Source: Candidatus Mcinerneyibacteriota bacterium
GTDB taxonomy: Bacteria > Macinerneyibacteriota > Macinerneyibacteria > Macinerneyibacteriales > DSCS01
Direction: 5' to 3'
Assembly: GCA_016937175.1 (NCBI GenBank)
Contig: JAFGWL010000044.1
Location: 1-15,355 of the forward strand
DNA: 15,355 nucleotides
In this document: positions 4,728-13,365 of the stretch, in pieces
How positions within the stretch are numbered: the stretch's first letter is position 1
How the letters are laid out: each line of letters begins with the position of its first letter
Program-made: the position numbers and the translations under genes
Notes under the pieces: generated by a model
Database searches by the model: none
Seen by the model: the letters and a program-made list of their open reading frames with translations, nothing else
Told to the model about the DNA's origin: nothing

Positions 4728-4733
4728 GCCCCT

Positions 4734-4761
4734 ATTATAAAGAGTTTAGCGTTGTGTGCAA
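4734..4761 (-). promoter_or_regulatory. Promoter of the modE-moeA-moaA-moaC-MOSC-mogA-PHP operon, predicted leaderless
   Basis: On the minus strand a TATAAT -10 (4734-4739) lies 16 bases after a weak -35, TTGCAC (4756-4761). Only six bases, AGGGGC, separate TATAAT from the ATG at 4727, so the expected transcription start falls on or next to the start codon. The inverted repeat at 4750-4773 covers the -35, consistent with repression. Confidence 0.72.
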
Positions 4762-4857: not shown

Positions 4858-5025
4858 ATGGCTTACAAAATTTCTGATGCTTGTGTGGCTTGCGGAACCT
4901 GTCTGCCTGAATGCCCCGTGGAAGCGATTTCCGAGGGCGATATTTATGTCATTGATCCCGAGAAGTGCATTGATTGCGGCGCCTGTGCAGCTGTCTGCCC
5001 CGTAAGCGCTATTTCTCCCGCTTAA
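4858..5025 (+). CDS. Small 2[4Fe-4S] ferredoxin
   Basis: A 55-residue protein typical in length for clostridial-type ferredoxins. It has two complete cluster motifs: CVACGTCLPECP (Cys 9, 12, 15, 19) and CIDCGACAAVCP (Cys 37, 40, 43, 47), each CxxCxxCxxxCP, in a pseudo-twofold repeat. It is a soluble low-potential electron carrier for anaerobic oxidoreductases. A strong AAGGAGG lies 6 bases before the ATG, and two stop codons (TAATAA) end the gene. It is a single-gene unit with its own promoter and intrinsic terminator, divergent from the molybdenum-cofactor operon. The shared intergenic region with a ModE-like repeat suggests, but does not prove, that it serves molybdenum- or tungsten-dependent enzymes. 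Confidence 0.96.
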   Translation: MAYKISDACVACGTCLPECPVEAISEGDIYVIDPEKCIDCGACAAVCPVSAISPA

Positions 5026-5113: not shown

Positions 5114-6157
5114 TTACTGAAGCTCTTTCTCAATTTCTCTTATGATCAAAGATGGAGTCAACTCTTTCATACAGGCCATCTTATCCGTTTCAAGAGGACA
5201 TTTTTTTTGAAAACAGGGTGAACACGTGAGCATGATCTGGAAGATACGGGCTTTGGGGTTGTACGGCCCGGTCTTTTTGGGTTTTGTGGGCCCGAAAAAG
5301 GCAAATTGCTTTATCCCCATGGCTGCAGCAATATGCATGGGCCCGCTGTCTCCCGAAAGGAAGAGGTCCATCTCCCCGGCTCTTGCAGCAAACTCCGAAA
5401 GGCTCAGCTCACCGGCTTTGTTTACACCATGCTCCAACCCATGGATGATGGATTCATTCTTTTCACGCTCCCCGGGCCCGCCGAAAAGAAAGACTGTCCC
5501 TCCCCGCTCTTCTGTCACCCATCGGGCCACATCACGATAATACTCTTCAGGCCAGTTTTTGGACGGCCATTTGGAAAAGGGCGCCAGCCCCACAAAGGGG
5601 CGCTTATATTTCTTTAATTCGTCCCTCGCAGCCTTTTTCTTCTCCTCCGACAAAGGAAAGAAAAAACGCCCCCGCTTCTCTTTGGGGATCAGCCCCAGAG
5701 AAGAGGCCAGGTGGTGATACCAGTCGATGGCATGGCCTCCCGGAAAAGTCGCGTAGGGGATATTATCAGTGACCATGAGCCTGTTGATTCCCTTGAGGGA
5801 AGCGGCTCTGCGCGGGATACAAGCTAAAAAGGGGATCAGGGAAGAGCGGAAGAGAGATTGAAAATCGATGGAAAGCTCCCACCCCTCTTTTCGGATCTCC
5901 CGGGTAAAGCGTCGAAGGTAAGAAATAATCTTTAAATAGCGCACTTTCCGTGCCCACTCTTCGATTTTTTTCTTTTCAAAAAGATAGAGTTTGTCCAGAT
6001 CATGGTAATCTTCGAGGGCTTCCATGCCCCCCTCCTCGGTGACCCAGCCCAGTTTCACACCGGGATGTGTCTGTTTGAGAAGGTCGGCCACAGGAATGGT
6101 CATGATGACATCTCCCAGTGACGAGAGTTTGATAAAAAGGATTTTCTTTGGATTCAT
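5114..6157 (-). CDS. Glycosyltransferase family 9 (ADP-heptose:LPS heptosyltransferase-like)
   Basis: A 347-residue GT-B fold enzyme of family GT9. Seen: the N-terminal KILFIKLSSLGDVIMTIPV at 5-23, typical of heptosyltransferases; the start of the second Rossmann domain VGLAPFSKWPSKNWP at 189-203; the nucleotide-sugar site SGDSGPMHIAAAMG at 268-281; and FGPTKPKKTGPY at 288-299. A cysteine-rich tail (CSPCFQKKCP at 312-321 and a later Cys) is also common in this family. It probably adds a heptose or similar sugar to the LPS core at the cytoplasmic face of the inner membrane; acceptor and donor cannot be told from sequence. It is a single gene with its own near-consensus promoter and no Shine-Dalgarno. 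No other LPS gene is adjacent. Confidence 0.92.
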   Translation of the reverse strand: MNPKKILFIKLSSLGDVIMTIPVADLLKQTHPGVKLGWVTEEGGMEALEDYHDLDKLYLFEKKKIEEWARKVRYLKIISYLRRFTREIRKEGWELSIDFQSLFRSSLIPFLACIPRRAASLKGINRLMVTDNIPYATFPGGHAIDWYHHLASSLGLIPKEKRGRFFFPLSEEKKKAARDELKKYKRPFVGLAPFSKWPSKNWPEEYYRDVARWVTEERGGTVFLFGGPGEREKNESIIHGLEHGVNKAGELSLSEFAARAGEMDLFLSGDSGPMHIAAAMGIKQFAFFGPTKPKKTGPYNPKARIFQIMLTCSPCFQKKCPLETDKMACMKELTPSLIIREIEKELQ

Positions 6158-6164
6158 AGTTGCG

Positions 6165-6192
6165 ATTATAGAGGGGTTCCCTTCTTTGTCAA
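6165..6192 (-). promoter_or_regulatory. Consensus promoter of the GT9 gene, predicted leaderless
   Basis: On the minus strand, a perfect TTGACA (6187-6192) and a perfect TATAAT (6165-6170) are 16 bases apart. Seven bases, CGCAACT, follow before the ATG at 6157, placing the expected transcription start at the start codon. There is no Shine-Dalgarno in those seven bases. The -35 begins 8 bases after the stop of the upstream gene. Confidence 0.85.
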
Positions 6193-6199
6193 CAAAGGG

Positions 6200-7663
6200 T
6201 CACCGCCAGACGCCGTTTCCGGAACTCCCCGAACTGGTCAGCTGCAGGTTTACCGGAAGCCCGTCCAGGATCGTGGGGTTGTCTGTGATATTGACGCCCC
6301 GCAAGGCTTTGGGGTCGGTAAAGTCTGTTCCTGTCTGCTCCCCGTTATCCGTCCCGTTGATCCAGAGATTCCCGTTGGCAAAGATCTTGCCTAAAATCGT
6401 CGTCGTCCCGTTGGCGAGGACATAATAGCGGCGGTTGGCTCCACCTCCCTGGGCGGCGGTCTCATAGAGGTCCGAATCAAAGGTGATATTGTCCCCAACC
6501 AGATAGATATTTCCCCCGGCTGTCTGCCACTCGTAGTTGACGGTGATATAGCTCCACCATCCCATCCGGTAACCGTACCAGGCATAATTCCGCACAGTGA
6601 TATTCCGTGAGGCGACGATCCCCAGCCGTCCTGAGATCCAGAAATCGGCCCCGTAAAGGTGAAGCTGCGGGTTTCGCGCATCATTTGGCTGGGGAGCCCC
6701 GTCAGGGGTCCCGATAGTGGCGTTCCCTTCGACGATGTAGAGGATATCCCGGTTTACGGGCGATGTATAGATATCGTGTTTGGCTTCGATGATAAGATCT
6801 CCCCGGACGATGACCACGGCCACACCGCTCGCTCCGGGTTCACTCCCTGCGGTATCTGTGAGGTCTGTCACTGTGAGGTTTCCGATATGGATGTTTCCGG
6901 CGGGGACCACGGCGGTTCCCAGGGCGATGACAGAATCCACCCAGGAGCTGAACGCCGCATCTGTCTGGAGATAGGCGGGAACAGTCAAAGTCTTTTTATT
7001 CAGGGCGTCGGTGGGTGTCACGTCGAACTTACCGTCTAAATCGTAGGGATCCGGCGGATAGGCAGTGACAATAGAGCCGTTGTAATAAAAGAGGGCGTTT
7101 TCCACCCGCAGGTCGTTGGAGTAGTAATCCACATCATCCTGCTGTGTCCATGTGTCGTTCCATATATAGGGGTAATAGTTCCCGTCCACATCCATGCGGA
7201 CATTCCCGTGGGTATAGACAGTGAAGTTCTGGGCGGACGTCATCCCAGGCAGGCAATATTCCAGTTCCAGGCCGTAAGCTGGAGAGGTGACCAGGATACT
7301 CACCGGGTTCACTCCCGTGACAACTTTCGAGGCGGCGTTCACTTCATTGAGCTCTTCGGTGTTGTTGACCACATAGCCGTCCCAGTTGTCGAACTCTCGT
7401 ACAGAGATAGTGAAATCTTCGGCAAGCCAGAGGGTCTGGTCGGGGAAATGGACAGGATCGGTGAGGTCTTTCCGCCCGGTATTCTTCACCAGGGCGATGG
7501 CACGCTGCAGGTCGCCTTCCAGGGCATACGCCTCCTGAGTCCTGGCGATGGTCTTCTGAGCCTGCTGGGACTGAAAATAGCTTCTCAGGAAGATCCCCGA
7601 AAGGAGAAAGATCCCCACGATGAGAAAGGCTGTCATGCTGAGAAGGATGCTGCCCCGTCTCAT
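6200..7663 (-). CDS. PilX/GspK-like minor pilin with a large beta-solenoid-like ectodomain
   Basis: A 487-residue protein with a short basic N terminus (MRRGS), a single hydrophobic helix at about 6-26 and a helical neck to about 63, then a long exported domain. The N terminus resembles PilX/GspK minor pilins with possible cleavage after Gly4, but there is no Glu at +5, so processing is uncertain. From about 255 to 465 the sequence is rich in short beta strands ending in turns of the form G-N-x-x or N-[ILAG]-T (GNIHI, GNLTV, GDLII, GNATI, RNITV, GNIYL, DNITF, NGTTTI, GNLWI, VNITD), which suggests a parallel beta-solenoid. It overlaps the preceding pseudopilin gene by 4 bases (ATGA) and is last in a three-gene unit. 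I do not recognise a named domain; adhesion or pilus-tip assembly is inference. Confidence 0.75.
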   Translation of the reverse strand: MRRGSILLSMTAFLIVGIFLLSGIFLRSYFQSQQAQKTIARTQEAYALEGDLQRAIALVKNTGRKDLTDPVHFPDQTLWLAEDFTISVREFDNWDGYVVNNTEELNEVNAASKVVTGVNPVSILVTSPAYGLELEYCLPGMTSAQNFTVYTHGNVRMDVDGNYYPYIWNDTWTQQDDVDYYSNDLRVENALFYYNGSIVTAYPPDPYDLDGKFDVTPTDALNKKTLTVPAYLQTDAAFSSWVDSVIALGTAVVPAGNIHIGNLTVTDLTDTAGSEPGASGVAVVIVRGDLIIEAKHDIYTSPVNRDILYIVEGNATIGTPDGAPQPNDARNPQLHLYGADFWISGRLGIVASRNITVRNYAWYGYRMGWWSYITVNYEWQTAGGNIYLVGDNITFDSDLYETAAQGGGANRRYYVLANGTTTILGKIFANGNLWINGTDNGEQTGTDFTDPKALRGVNITDNPTILDGLPVNLQLTSSGSSGNGVWR

Positions 7664-8142: not shown

Positions 8143-8599
8143 AGATCCTCACCACATAAACCAGGTCTTCCTGGTACTGACTCGTCCCCTGCCCTTCGCT
8201 TCCCGCTTTGAGCTCTGTCCAGCGCAGGGTCACCGTGATCGTCTTGTACTCTCCTCCGCCATCGGGGTCGGTCTCCTGGAGAACCACCCAGGTGATGGTG
8301 CCGGTGAGATCATCCCCGGGATCAGGGGTTCCCTTGTCATCGATGGTCACGGGATTTCCGGGATAGGAATAAGAGGTCCCGGTCCCCGGAGGAGTATCAG
8401 CCAGAAGCAGATCATTATAGTCCAAGGCCATGATCTCTTCCAGGACCGCCAGGGCCACCCCATCGGCTTTTTGCCTGGAGGCTTCTTTCCCGTGAATGAA
8501 ATAGATCGTGGCATAATTCTGGAAAAAAAGGAACAGAAAGACAGCCCCCATGGACATGGCGGCGATAAATTCCACAAGTGTGGCTCCGGTTTTCTTCAT
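8123..8599 (-). CDS. Type IV pilin-like / GspI- or PilV-type pseudopilin
   Basis: A 158-residue protein starting MKKTGATLVEFIAAMSMG. The leader ends at Gly5 and mature residue 5 is Glu (residue 10), as required by prepilin peptidase. A hydrophobic helix follows to about residue 30. The C-terminal domain is acidic and beta-rich with Gly/Pro/Asp loops (TPPGTGTSYSYPGNP, DDKGTPDPGDD) that recall the calcium-binding or flexible loops of minor pseudopilins, although no specific calcium motif is certain. It is first in the three-gene pseudopilin unit. Its promoter overlaps the divergent control region shared with sir2, and a TATACT box ends only 5 bases before the ATG. Confidence 0.83.
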   Translation of the reverse strand: MKKTGATLVEFIAAMSMGAVFLFLFFQNYATIYFIHGKEASRQKADGVALAVLEEIMALDYNDLLLADTPPGTGTSYSYPGNPVTIDDKGTPDPGDDLTGTITWVVLQETDPDGGGEYKTITVTLRWTELKAGSEGQGTSQYQEDLVYVVRIYEDAAY

Positions 8600-8604
8600 A
8601 CGTA

Positions 8605-8633
8605 AGTATAGCCTCCGCTCTTGTCGATTGCAA
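8605..8633 (-). promoter_or_regulatory. Promoter of the pseudopilin gene cluster, possibly leaderless
   Basis: On the minus strand TTGCAA (8628-8633) and TATACT (8605-8610) are 17 bases apart, with only 5 bases (TACGT) before the ATG at 8599. A GGAGG element occurs at 8612-8616, 12 bases before the ATG and within the promoter spacer, so it would be absent from a transcript started at this promoter. Confidence 0.55.
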
Positions 8634-8651
8634 GATAAATGCCGACGGGGC

Positions 8652-8679
8652 TTGACCTTGAGGGCTCCCCCCCTATAAT
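8652..8679 (+). promoter_or_regulatory. Promoter of the sir2 gene, predicted leaderless
   Basis: TTGACC (8652-8657) and a perfect TATAAT (8674-8679) are 16 bases apart. Six bases, AGAACC, precede the ATG at 8686, so transcription should begin at or next to the start codon. No Shine-Dalgarno is present upstream. It is back to back with the pseudopilin promoter, their -35 boxes being 18 bases apart. Confidence 0.8.
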
Positions 8680-8685
8680 AGAACC

Positions 8686-9429
8686 ATGGACGAACACATC
8701 AAAACCCTGGCTGATCTCATGACAACATCGCGGTATACTGTGGCCCTCACCGGAGCGGGGATCTCCACAAGCGCCGGCATCCCCGACTTCCGGGGAGAAC
8801 GGGGGATCTATATCACCCGTCAGTACGACCCCGAAAAGACCTTCGATATCACGTCATTTCAACGAGACCCCTCCTCCTTCTATGCCTTCACCAGGGATTT
8901 TTTCAATCAGTTCAAGACTCTTCAGCCCACTCCGGCTCACCGCTTCCTGGCCCGGCTGGAAGAGGCGGGGCTTCTGCATTTTATCATGACTCAGAATATC
9001 GACGGCCTTCACCATGCAGCTGGGTCGAAACAAGTCATCGAGCTTCACGGCTCCTACCGGACAGGGCGCTGTCTCTCCTGCGGGGCAGAGCGCGACCTGG
9101 CCTGGATCAAGGAACGCATCAGCTCCACCGGCTCCCTGGAGTGTCCCTGCGGGGGGATCACCAAGCCGGACATCGTCTTTTTCGGAGAGCCGGTCCACGG
9201 GATGGAGGCCTCTTACCGGGAAGCCCTGAAGGCAGACCTCTTTTTGGTCCTGGGGTCGTCACTCACCGTCACTCCCGCAGCACTCCTCCCTGAAGTCTCC
9301 CGGGGGAAGGTCGTGATCGTGAATAAGGGGCTCACCGCTTTTCCCTCTTCCAAAACAACGCTCTTCCTGGACGGGGACCTGGATGAGATCTGCAGAAGAA
9401 CGGCCCGGGCCCTCTCCATCCCCCTCTGA
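8686..9429 (+). CDS. NAD-dependent protein deacylase, Sir2 family
   Basis: A 247-residue sirtuin, the normal size for bacterial enzymes. It removes acetyl or other acyl groups from protein lysines using NAD+. Seen: LTGAGISTSAGIPDFRG at 21-37 (NAD binding), TQNIDGLHH at 102-110, the catalytic His121 in ELHG, a zinc-binding set Cys129, Cys132, Cys153 and Cys155, KPDIVFFGE at 160-168, GSSLTV at 190-195 and IVN at 211-213. The Tyr/Arg pair of desuccinylase-type class III sirtuins is not evident. The overall pattern is closer to the Thermotoga-type class U enzyme, suggesting deacetylase activity. It has its own promoter. No acetyltransferase or acetyl-CoA synthetase gene is beside it, so its target cannot be inferred from context. 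Confidence 0.94.
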   Translation: MDEHIKTLADLMTTSRYTVALTGAGISTSAGIPDFRGERGIYITRQYDPEKTFDITSFQRDPSSFYAFTRDFFNQFKTLQPTPAHRFLARLEEAGLLHFIMTQNIDGLHHAAGSKQVIELHGSYRTGRCLSCGAERDLAWIKERISSTGSLECPCGGITKPDIVFFGEPVHGMEASYREALKADLFLVLGSSLTVTPAALLPEVSRGKVVIVNKGLTAFPSSKTTLFLDGDLDEICRRTARALSIPL

Positions 9430-11926: not shown

Positions 11927-13316
11927 AAAACTCGGCGTTTTTGGGAACACGGGGGAAGGGTATGACATCCCTGATGTTTTCCATTCCCGTCAGAGCCATG
12001 AGTGCCCGTTCAAACCCGATCCCGAAGCCGGCATGGGGGGTCGACCCGTATTTACGCAGATCCAAATACCACCAGTAATCAGATTCATTGAGCCCCATAT
12101 CCCGGATCCTTTTCAACAGAACATCATGACGCTCTTCACGCTGACTCCCGCCGATGAGTTCTCCGACGCCGGGGACCAGCAGGTCCATGGCGGCAACGGT
12201 CTTCTCATCGTCATTGAGGCGCATATAGAAAGCCTTGATCTCTTTGGGGTAGTCGGTGACAAAGACAGGACGTCCGAAGACCTCTTCAGAGAGGAAGCGT
12301 TCATGCTCCGTCTGCAGGTCACATCCCCATTCCACGGGGAACTGGAACTCTTTTTTCGCCGCCTTCAGGGCCTGGATGGCTTCTGTATAAGTGATGCGTC
12401 CAAAATCGGAGGCGACGACCTTTTCCATCTTTTCCAGGATCCCCTTCTGGATGAAAGAATTAAAAAACTCCATCTCTTCGGGGGCTTCGCGCAGAACAAA
12501 CCCGAAGACATCTTTCACCATAGCTTCAGCCAGCTCCATATCGTCGTTGAGGTCAGCAAAGGCGATCTCCGGCTCGATCATCCACAGTTCGGAAAGATGG
12601 CGCGGGGTATTGGAGTTTTCCGCCCTGAATGCCGGGCCGAAGGTATAGACCTTGCCGAAGGCCTGACAAAAGGTCTCCACGTTGAGCTGCCCACTCACGG
12701 TGAGGTTGGTCTCTTTTCCGAAAAAGTCTTTTGAAAAATCGATGCGGCCCTCTTCATTTTTGGGAACGTCTCCAAGATCCAGGGTGGTCACCCGGAACAT
12801 CTCCCCGGCCCCTTCACAGTCGCTCCCCGTGATCAGGGGCGTGTGGACATAGACAAAACCCTGCTCATGGAAAAACCGGTGAAACGCATAAGCCAGAAGA
12901 TGGCGCAGGCGGAACACCGCTGAAAAGGTGTTGGTCCGGGGACGCAGATGGGCGATGGTGCGCAGATATTCAAAGGTGTGGCGTTTCTTCTGCAGGGGGT
13001 AATCCTCGGGAGAAGTTCCAATGATCTTAATGTATCCTGCATGAAGCTCGACGGGCTGTTTCGGCGCCGGGGATTCAACAAGCTCTCCTTCAACCATGAC
13101 AGATGTCCCCACGCCTGATTTGGCGATCTCCTCATAATCGGGAAGAGAGGGATCAAAGACCACCTGAAGGTTTTTGAAAAAAGACCCGTCGTTCAGTTCC
13201 ATGAAGGAGAAGTTCTTGGAATTCCGGATGGTCCGGACCCATCCCTGTACACGGACTTCTTCTCCTGCTAAGCCTTGAGCTTCTCTCCAGATCGTTTTAA
13301 CTGACAGATCTTTCAT
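11925..13316 (-). CDS. asnS: Asparaginyl-tRNA synthetase
   Basis: A class II aminoacyl-tRNA synthetase of 463 residues from the chosen start, close to the usual 466. The N-terminal OB fold ([18 protein letters not shown]) binds the anticodon. The catalytic domain has motif 1 ([18 protein letters not shown]), motif 2 ([21 protein letters not shown]) with its ATP-binding Arg, [12 protein letters not shown], and motif 3 ([15 protein letters not shown]). [10 protein letters not shown] and the TPRHL element indicate AsnRS rather than AspRS or LysRS. Four in-frame ATG codons crowd the start (13328, 13319, 13316 and later). GGAGGT at 13321-13326 sits properly (5 bases) ahead of the ATG at 13316, which also gives a normal N terminus, so I chose it. 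It attaches Asn to tRNA-Asn directly. The gene stands alone with its own promoter and terminator. Confidence 0.96.
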
Positions 13317-13337
13317 CATGACCTCCATGTTTTCCCT

Positions 13338-13365
13338 ATTTTAAGTATTCAATGAAACGTGTCAA
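13338..13365 (-). promoter_or_regulatory. Promoter of asnS
   Basis: On the minus strand TTGACA (13360-13365) and TAAAAT (13338-13343) are 16 bases apart. The predicted start near 13331 gives a leader of only about 14 bases, containing GGAGGT, before the ATG at 13316. The -35 begins 11 bases after the stop of the upstream hydrolase gene. No terminator hairpin for that gene is visible in between. Confidence 0.72.

Follow-up and report, generated by a model that had tools for sequence, protein, structure and literature searches.

Is the gene for a GT9 (heptosyltransferase-type) glycosyltransferase transcribed from its own start codon, without any mRNA leader? The question is raised by its upstream region, which reads ...GTTGACAAAGAAGGGAACCCCTCTATAATCGCAACTATGAATCC on the minus strand of the window (the whole stretch of 15,355 nt analyzed here) and brings a promoter of consensus sequence to within a few bases of the ATG. 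We conclude that the GT9 mRNA very probably begins at the A of this ATG and is leaderless, because of the perfect −35 and −10 elements, a genome-wide spike in the spacing of −10 boxes, the lack of a Shine-Dalgarno (SD) sequence, the position of such genes at the heads of transcription units, and conservation in the nearest relative, G001.

The GT9 promoter and start codon

The sequence agrees with the initial annotation in that the −35 and −10 hexamers of GT9 are both perfect, lie 16 nt apart, and end 7 nt from the ATG, and in that no SD sequence precedes this ATG on the minus strand (Table 1). Judged as a sigma-70/sigma-A promoter (TTGACA/TATAAT, 16–18 nt apart), the site scores 12/12 with a spacer of 16, and it is the sole 12/12 promoter-like site within the window. 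In the 1.88-Mb genome, TTGACA-N15-18-TATAAT-N4-9-ATG has 4 occurrences, and the reversed pattern has none. In bacterial promoters, the usual position of the starting purine is 7–8 bases after the −10 element. Since a T stands just before the A of the GT9 ATG, giving a pyrimidine–purine initiator (T at −1, A at +1), we infer that transcription starts at this A.

Table 1. Predicted promoter elements and associated genes in the window
Feature	Position	Strand	Observation
−35 element TTGACA, GT9 promoter	6187..6192	−	6/6 match; TTGACA also in G001
−10 element TATAAT, GT9 promoter	6165..6170	−	6/6 match; 16-nt spacer from −35, same in G001
Gap CGCAACT, 7 nt, −10 to GT9 ATG	6158..6164	−	gap length same in G001
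GT9 (heptosyltransferase-type) glycosyltransferase gene, 347 aa	5114..6157	−	predicted leaderless; ATG 6157–6155
sir2 predicted leaderless promoter, TTGACC-16-TATAAT, gap 6	8652..8685	+	ATG 8686; −35, −10 and gap same in G001
modE-like regulator predicted leaderless promoter, TTGCAC-16-TATAAT, gap 6	4728..4761	−	ATG 4727; all kept in G001
Pilin-like gene, possible (near-)leaderless promoter, TTGCAA-17-TATACT, gap 5	8600..8633	−	ATG 8599; conserved in G001

The ATG itself had been defended by the conserved N terminus of the family, and this argument stands. The GT9 product matches Pfam Glyco_transf_9 with an E value of 5e-45 and 154 bits (curated cut-off 22); its N terminus is MNPKKILFIKLSSLGDVIM, with the conserved strand/loop KKILFIKLSSLGDVI from residue 4–5, and an independent dicodon coding model also chose the start at 6157. 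If the promoter instead belonged to a leadered transcript and the true GT9 start codon lay farther downstream, the annotated ATG being an error of the kind seen in the window at asnS, then the later start would remove the first strand of the fold; the next methionine codon in frame falls inside this conserved motif, at the M of DVIM. We consider such a downstream start extremely improbable. The asnS gene (minus strand, region 13316–13365) was itself rejected as a leaderless case: its first ATG, at 13328, lies at the 5′ edge of an SD sequence, GGAGGT (13326–13321), and its likelier start is the ATG at 13316 (MKDLSV), which makes TTGACA-16-TAAAAT an ordinary leadered promoter with a 21-nt gap.

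The same layout had been claimed for modE and sir2, with a slightly weaker −35 in each. The layout is common to both, with a gap of 6 nt where GT9 has 7, and an SD sequence was found before none of the three starts; the −35 of sir2 is as described, but that of modE, matching at 3/6 positions, is weaker than claimed. The sir2 gene and the pilin-like gene starting at 8599 are divergent, with 86 bp between their start codons (8599–8686), an arrangement conserved in G001, and both are apparently leaderless or nearly so. Between modE and GT9 lies a small ORF for a 55-aa 2[4Fe-4S] ferredoxin (4858–5025, plus strand), which has a good SD sequence (GGAGG) and is shorter than the 80-aa cut used for ORFs. 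On the other side of GT9, a pilin-like gene runs in the same direction and ends 42 nt before the GT9 ATG, the GT9 −35 element starting 7 nt past its stop codon (6200–6202).

Spacing of −10 boxes across the genome

We counted −10-like boxes (at most one mismatch to TATAAT, with A2 and T6 fixed) by their gap to the start codon over 1.57 of the 1.88 Mb of the draft genome G000 (84%), whose contig 62 is the window; a simple dicodon model of our own called 1565 genes in this part. Among 2003 ATG candidates, a box was present at gap 6 in 48 and at gap 7 in 16, against a background of 7.3 per gap at gaps 0–4 and 9–17 (P = 1.6e-23). Gaps 5 and 8, with 9 and 8 boxes, were near background; the peak is thus one base wide with an asymmetric shoulder at 7. 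Dinucleotide shuffles yielded 8.1 ± 2.3 boxes, with a maximum of 12, and when a single best-coding start per gene was used, 29 boxes were found versus 3.9. GTG and TTG starts (1324 candidates) displayed no spike, with 5 boxes at gap 6 versus 6.5 expected. The initial annotation had regarded the layout as a habit of the genome rather than chance, and had set a genome scan against shuffled upstream regions beforehand as the test that could refute this; the enrichment of −10 boxes at gap 6, weaker at gap 7 and confined to ATG, upholds that view. Leaderless exceptions to the ATG-only class may exist in L024:5481 (−) and L012:6923 (+), two genes that start with GTG and have a −10 at gap 6 in a position conserved in G001.

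Because gene starts came from our own simple caller, single genes on the list of leaderless candidates may be wrong, while the −10 peak does not depend on any one called gene. The spacing signal needs real start codons: when the ATGs following every TATAAT in the genome were counted irrespective of gene starts, only a faint and uninformative bump was visible at gap 6 (23 versus about 13).

The shape of the peak bears on the possibility that the promoters are real and produce a very short leader of 1–5 nt, or that transcription begins just inside the codon at some genes. The gaps of 7 at GT9 and 5 at the pilin-like gene mean that starts could scatter by 1–2 nt. A spike one base wide and restricted to ATG argues against such scatter, as does the GT9 sequence, in which the seventh base after the −10 is T and the eighth A, so that the purine start is the A of the ATG; we judge the short-leader alternative improbable. 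The GT9 gap is nevertheless one off the sharp genome optimum of 6, in the shoulder rather than the peak, and boxes at gap 7 exceed background by a factor of only about two, so that the claim of leaderless transcription for GT9 is carried by its perfect −35 and −10 elements together with their conservation. Its transcription start may lie a few bases up- or downstream of the predicted A.

Of the 48 boxes at gap 6, 34 had TTG at the −35 position (spacer 16 in 25/48 and 17 in 9/48), and the −10-like boxes farther upstream of genes in G000 likewise have a TTG −35 at 16–17 nt. The usual distance between −35 and −10 elements is 17 ± 1. For the leadered −10 boxes of this genome, the TTG spacing was 16 nt in 91 and 17 nt in 75, with 18 nt at background (4).

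An SD-like tetramer preceded 3/48 of the gap-6 starts, versus 684/1055 of the other ATG starts (P = 9e-17). SD use was judged from a metaplot, since a search for the 3′ end of the 16S rRNA as GGATCACCTCCT did not find it in the assembly, from which it is probably missing; in this plot, the SD sequence is the dominant start signal of G000, with a peak 4–7 nt before the start. The genes concerned also tend to head transcription units. Of the 41 genes that combine a gap of 6 or 7 with a TTG −35, 21 are divergent from their neighbor and 11 are separated by 60 nt or more from a co-directional one (32/41 together), as compared with 218 and 336 among all 1472 genes (554/1472; P = 3e-7).

After subtraction of background, the leaderless candidates number about 48 of 1565 genes, and the layout is a minority habit (about 3%) in an otherwise SD-using genome. 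In several of these genes, the family domain begins directly after the predicted start, for example at residue 6 in cytidylate kinase and residue 12 in LptF/LptG. The class includes regulators (modE, ArsR, TetR, sensor kinases), envelope genes (LptF/LptG, MlaE, ExbD), and cytidylate kinase, a tRNA-deaminase-type enzyme, HPPK and others; we see no single theme in these mixed functions.

Conservation of the layout in relatives

The nearest relative, G001, belongs to the same genus, and about 0.8 Mb of it was compared. Its GT9 protein is 78–79% identical, the same pilin-like gene lies upstream, and the promoter keeps the form TTGACA-16-TATAAT-7-ATG despite changes at 6 of the 16 spacer bases. The gap is also kept at sir2, modE and the pilin-like gene starting at 8599. 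In a set of 553 orthologs whose starts aligned, 13 of the 17 boxes lying at gap 6 or 7 in G000 had the same gap in G001, versus 38 of the 144 at any other gap (P = 8e-5).

These data weigh on the reading in which the GT9 hexamers are chance occurrences in AT-rich intergenic DNA and the gene is translated off the transcript of the upstream pilin operon. The co-directional upstream gene, ending so close to GT9, would suit it. A 12/12 site whose spacings persist in G001 while its spacer diverges does not, nor does a genome-wide spike far above the shuffles, and the read-through message would offer GT9 no SD sequence; we give this reading hardly any credence.

In G002, from the same order, the GT9 relative (41% identity) has a different upstream neighbor and an SD-like sequence, aggtggg, before its ATG. 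The layout is therefore not common to the whole order, and the start mechanism differs within it; changes of start mechanism between related genomes have been reported by Zheng et al. (2011, PMC3160421). The order is seemingly represented by these three genomes, the other genomes sampled sharing only the domain. The promoter comparison excluded remote GT9 homologs, of about 30% identity, because their neighborhoods look unrelated. Across bacteria, the layout was found in 94/192 genomes versus 72/192 for a control gap of 12–13 nt, and in the genome studied here 6 times versus 1 at the control gap, which shows that it is not peculiar to this lineage.

Predicted expression of GT9 and known leaderless systems

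The most attractive explanation, which we hold with high though not complete confidence, is that a consensus housekeeping promoter puts the GT9 transcription start on the A of the ATG or within about 1 nt of it and that the mRNA is leaderless. A sigma-70/sigma-A-type promoter would start transcription at or near the A of the start codon, and the mRNA from this promoter would carry neither leader nor SD sequence; the ribosome would then recognize the 5′-terminal AUG, presumably by a 70S route. GT9 would thus be one of the roughly 3% of genes, mostly heads of transcription units, built as −35, 16–17 nt, −10, 6–7 nt, ATG.

Leaderless expression is a known and widespread minority mode in bacteria. 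In a survey of 953 genomes, leaderless genes were widespread but seldom dominant; their mark was a TANNNT box some 12 bp ahead of the start, which resembles the sigma-70 −10 element and is TATAAT in medium-GC genomes (PMC3160421). The genes described here resemble these TA-led genes in being a minority without SD sequence and in having the first T of the box 12–13 nt before the ATG. Among genomes having any leaderless genes, the survey averages were 26.5% in Aquificae, 15.8% in Deltaproteobacteria and 4.2% in Firmicutes (PMC3160421); the value of about 3% is near that of Firmicutes and far under those of Actinobacteria (19.2%) and Deinococcus-Thermus (39.4%). Going by the survey's table of groups, the present lineage was absent from it (PMC3160421). 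Leaderless initiation in Escherichia coli requires AUG, and 70S ribosomes can carry it out (PMC4965119). The likeness to the leaderless mRNAs studied there (lambda cI, tetR; PMC4965119) lies in the predicted 5′-terminal AUG, the restriction to AUG and the lack of an SD sequence; 70S binding has been described for 5′-terminal-AUG mRNAs (PMC4965119), whereas we propose it here from sequence. Canonical sigma-70/sigma-A promoters share the TTGACA/TATAAT hexamers and differ in that here the spacers are almost exclusively 16–17 nt and the start codon stands at the predicted transcription start.

The initial annotation had called leaderless genes less described in LPS-bearing anaerobes. The LPS-bearing label is right, since LpxC and Omp85 are present in the genome, and the lineage is apparently a deep-branching diderm; the "less described" part is weak. 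Nor are leaderless genes a rarity beyond Actinobacteria and Deinococcus, as the survey averages for Aquificae, Deltaproteobacteria and Firmicutes show.

A read-through mRNA with a long leader, coming from the upstream pilin-like gene, may also exist. Because a leaderless start has no SD sequence, GT9 could be translated from its own promoter's mRNA alone and not from such read-through, which we think rather unlikely; if true, an internal leaderless promoter would insulate co-directional genes from each other at the level of translation. No principle is changed by these findings, the wide spread of leaderless genes being already known. They document a statistically firm leaderless minority for a sparsely sampled LPS-bearing lineage and provide a rule for annotating starts in it: TATAAT, 6 or 7 nt, ATG.
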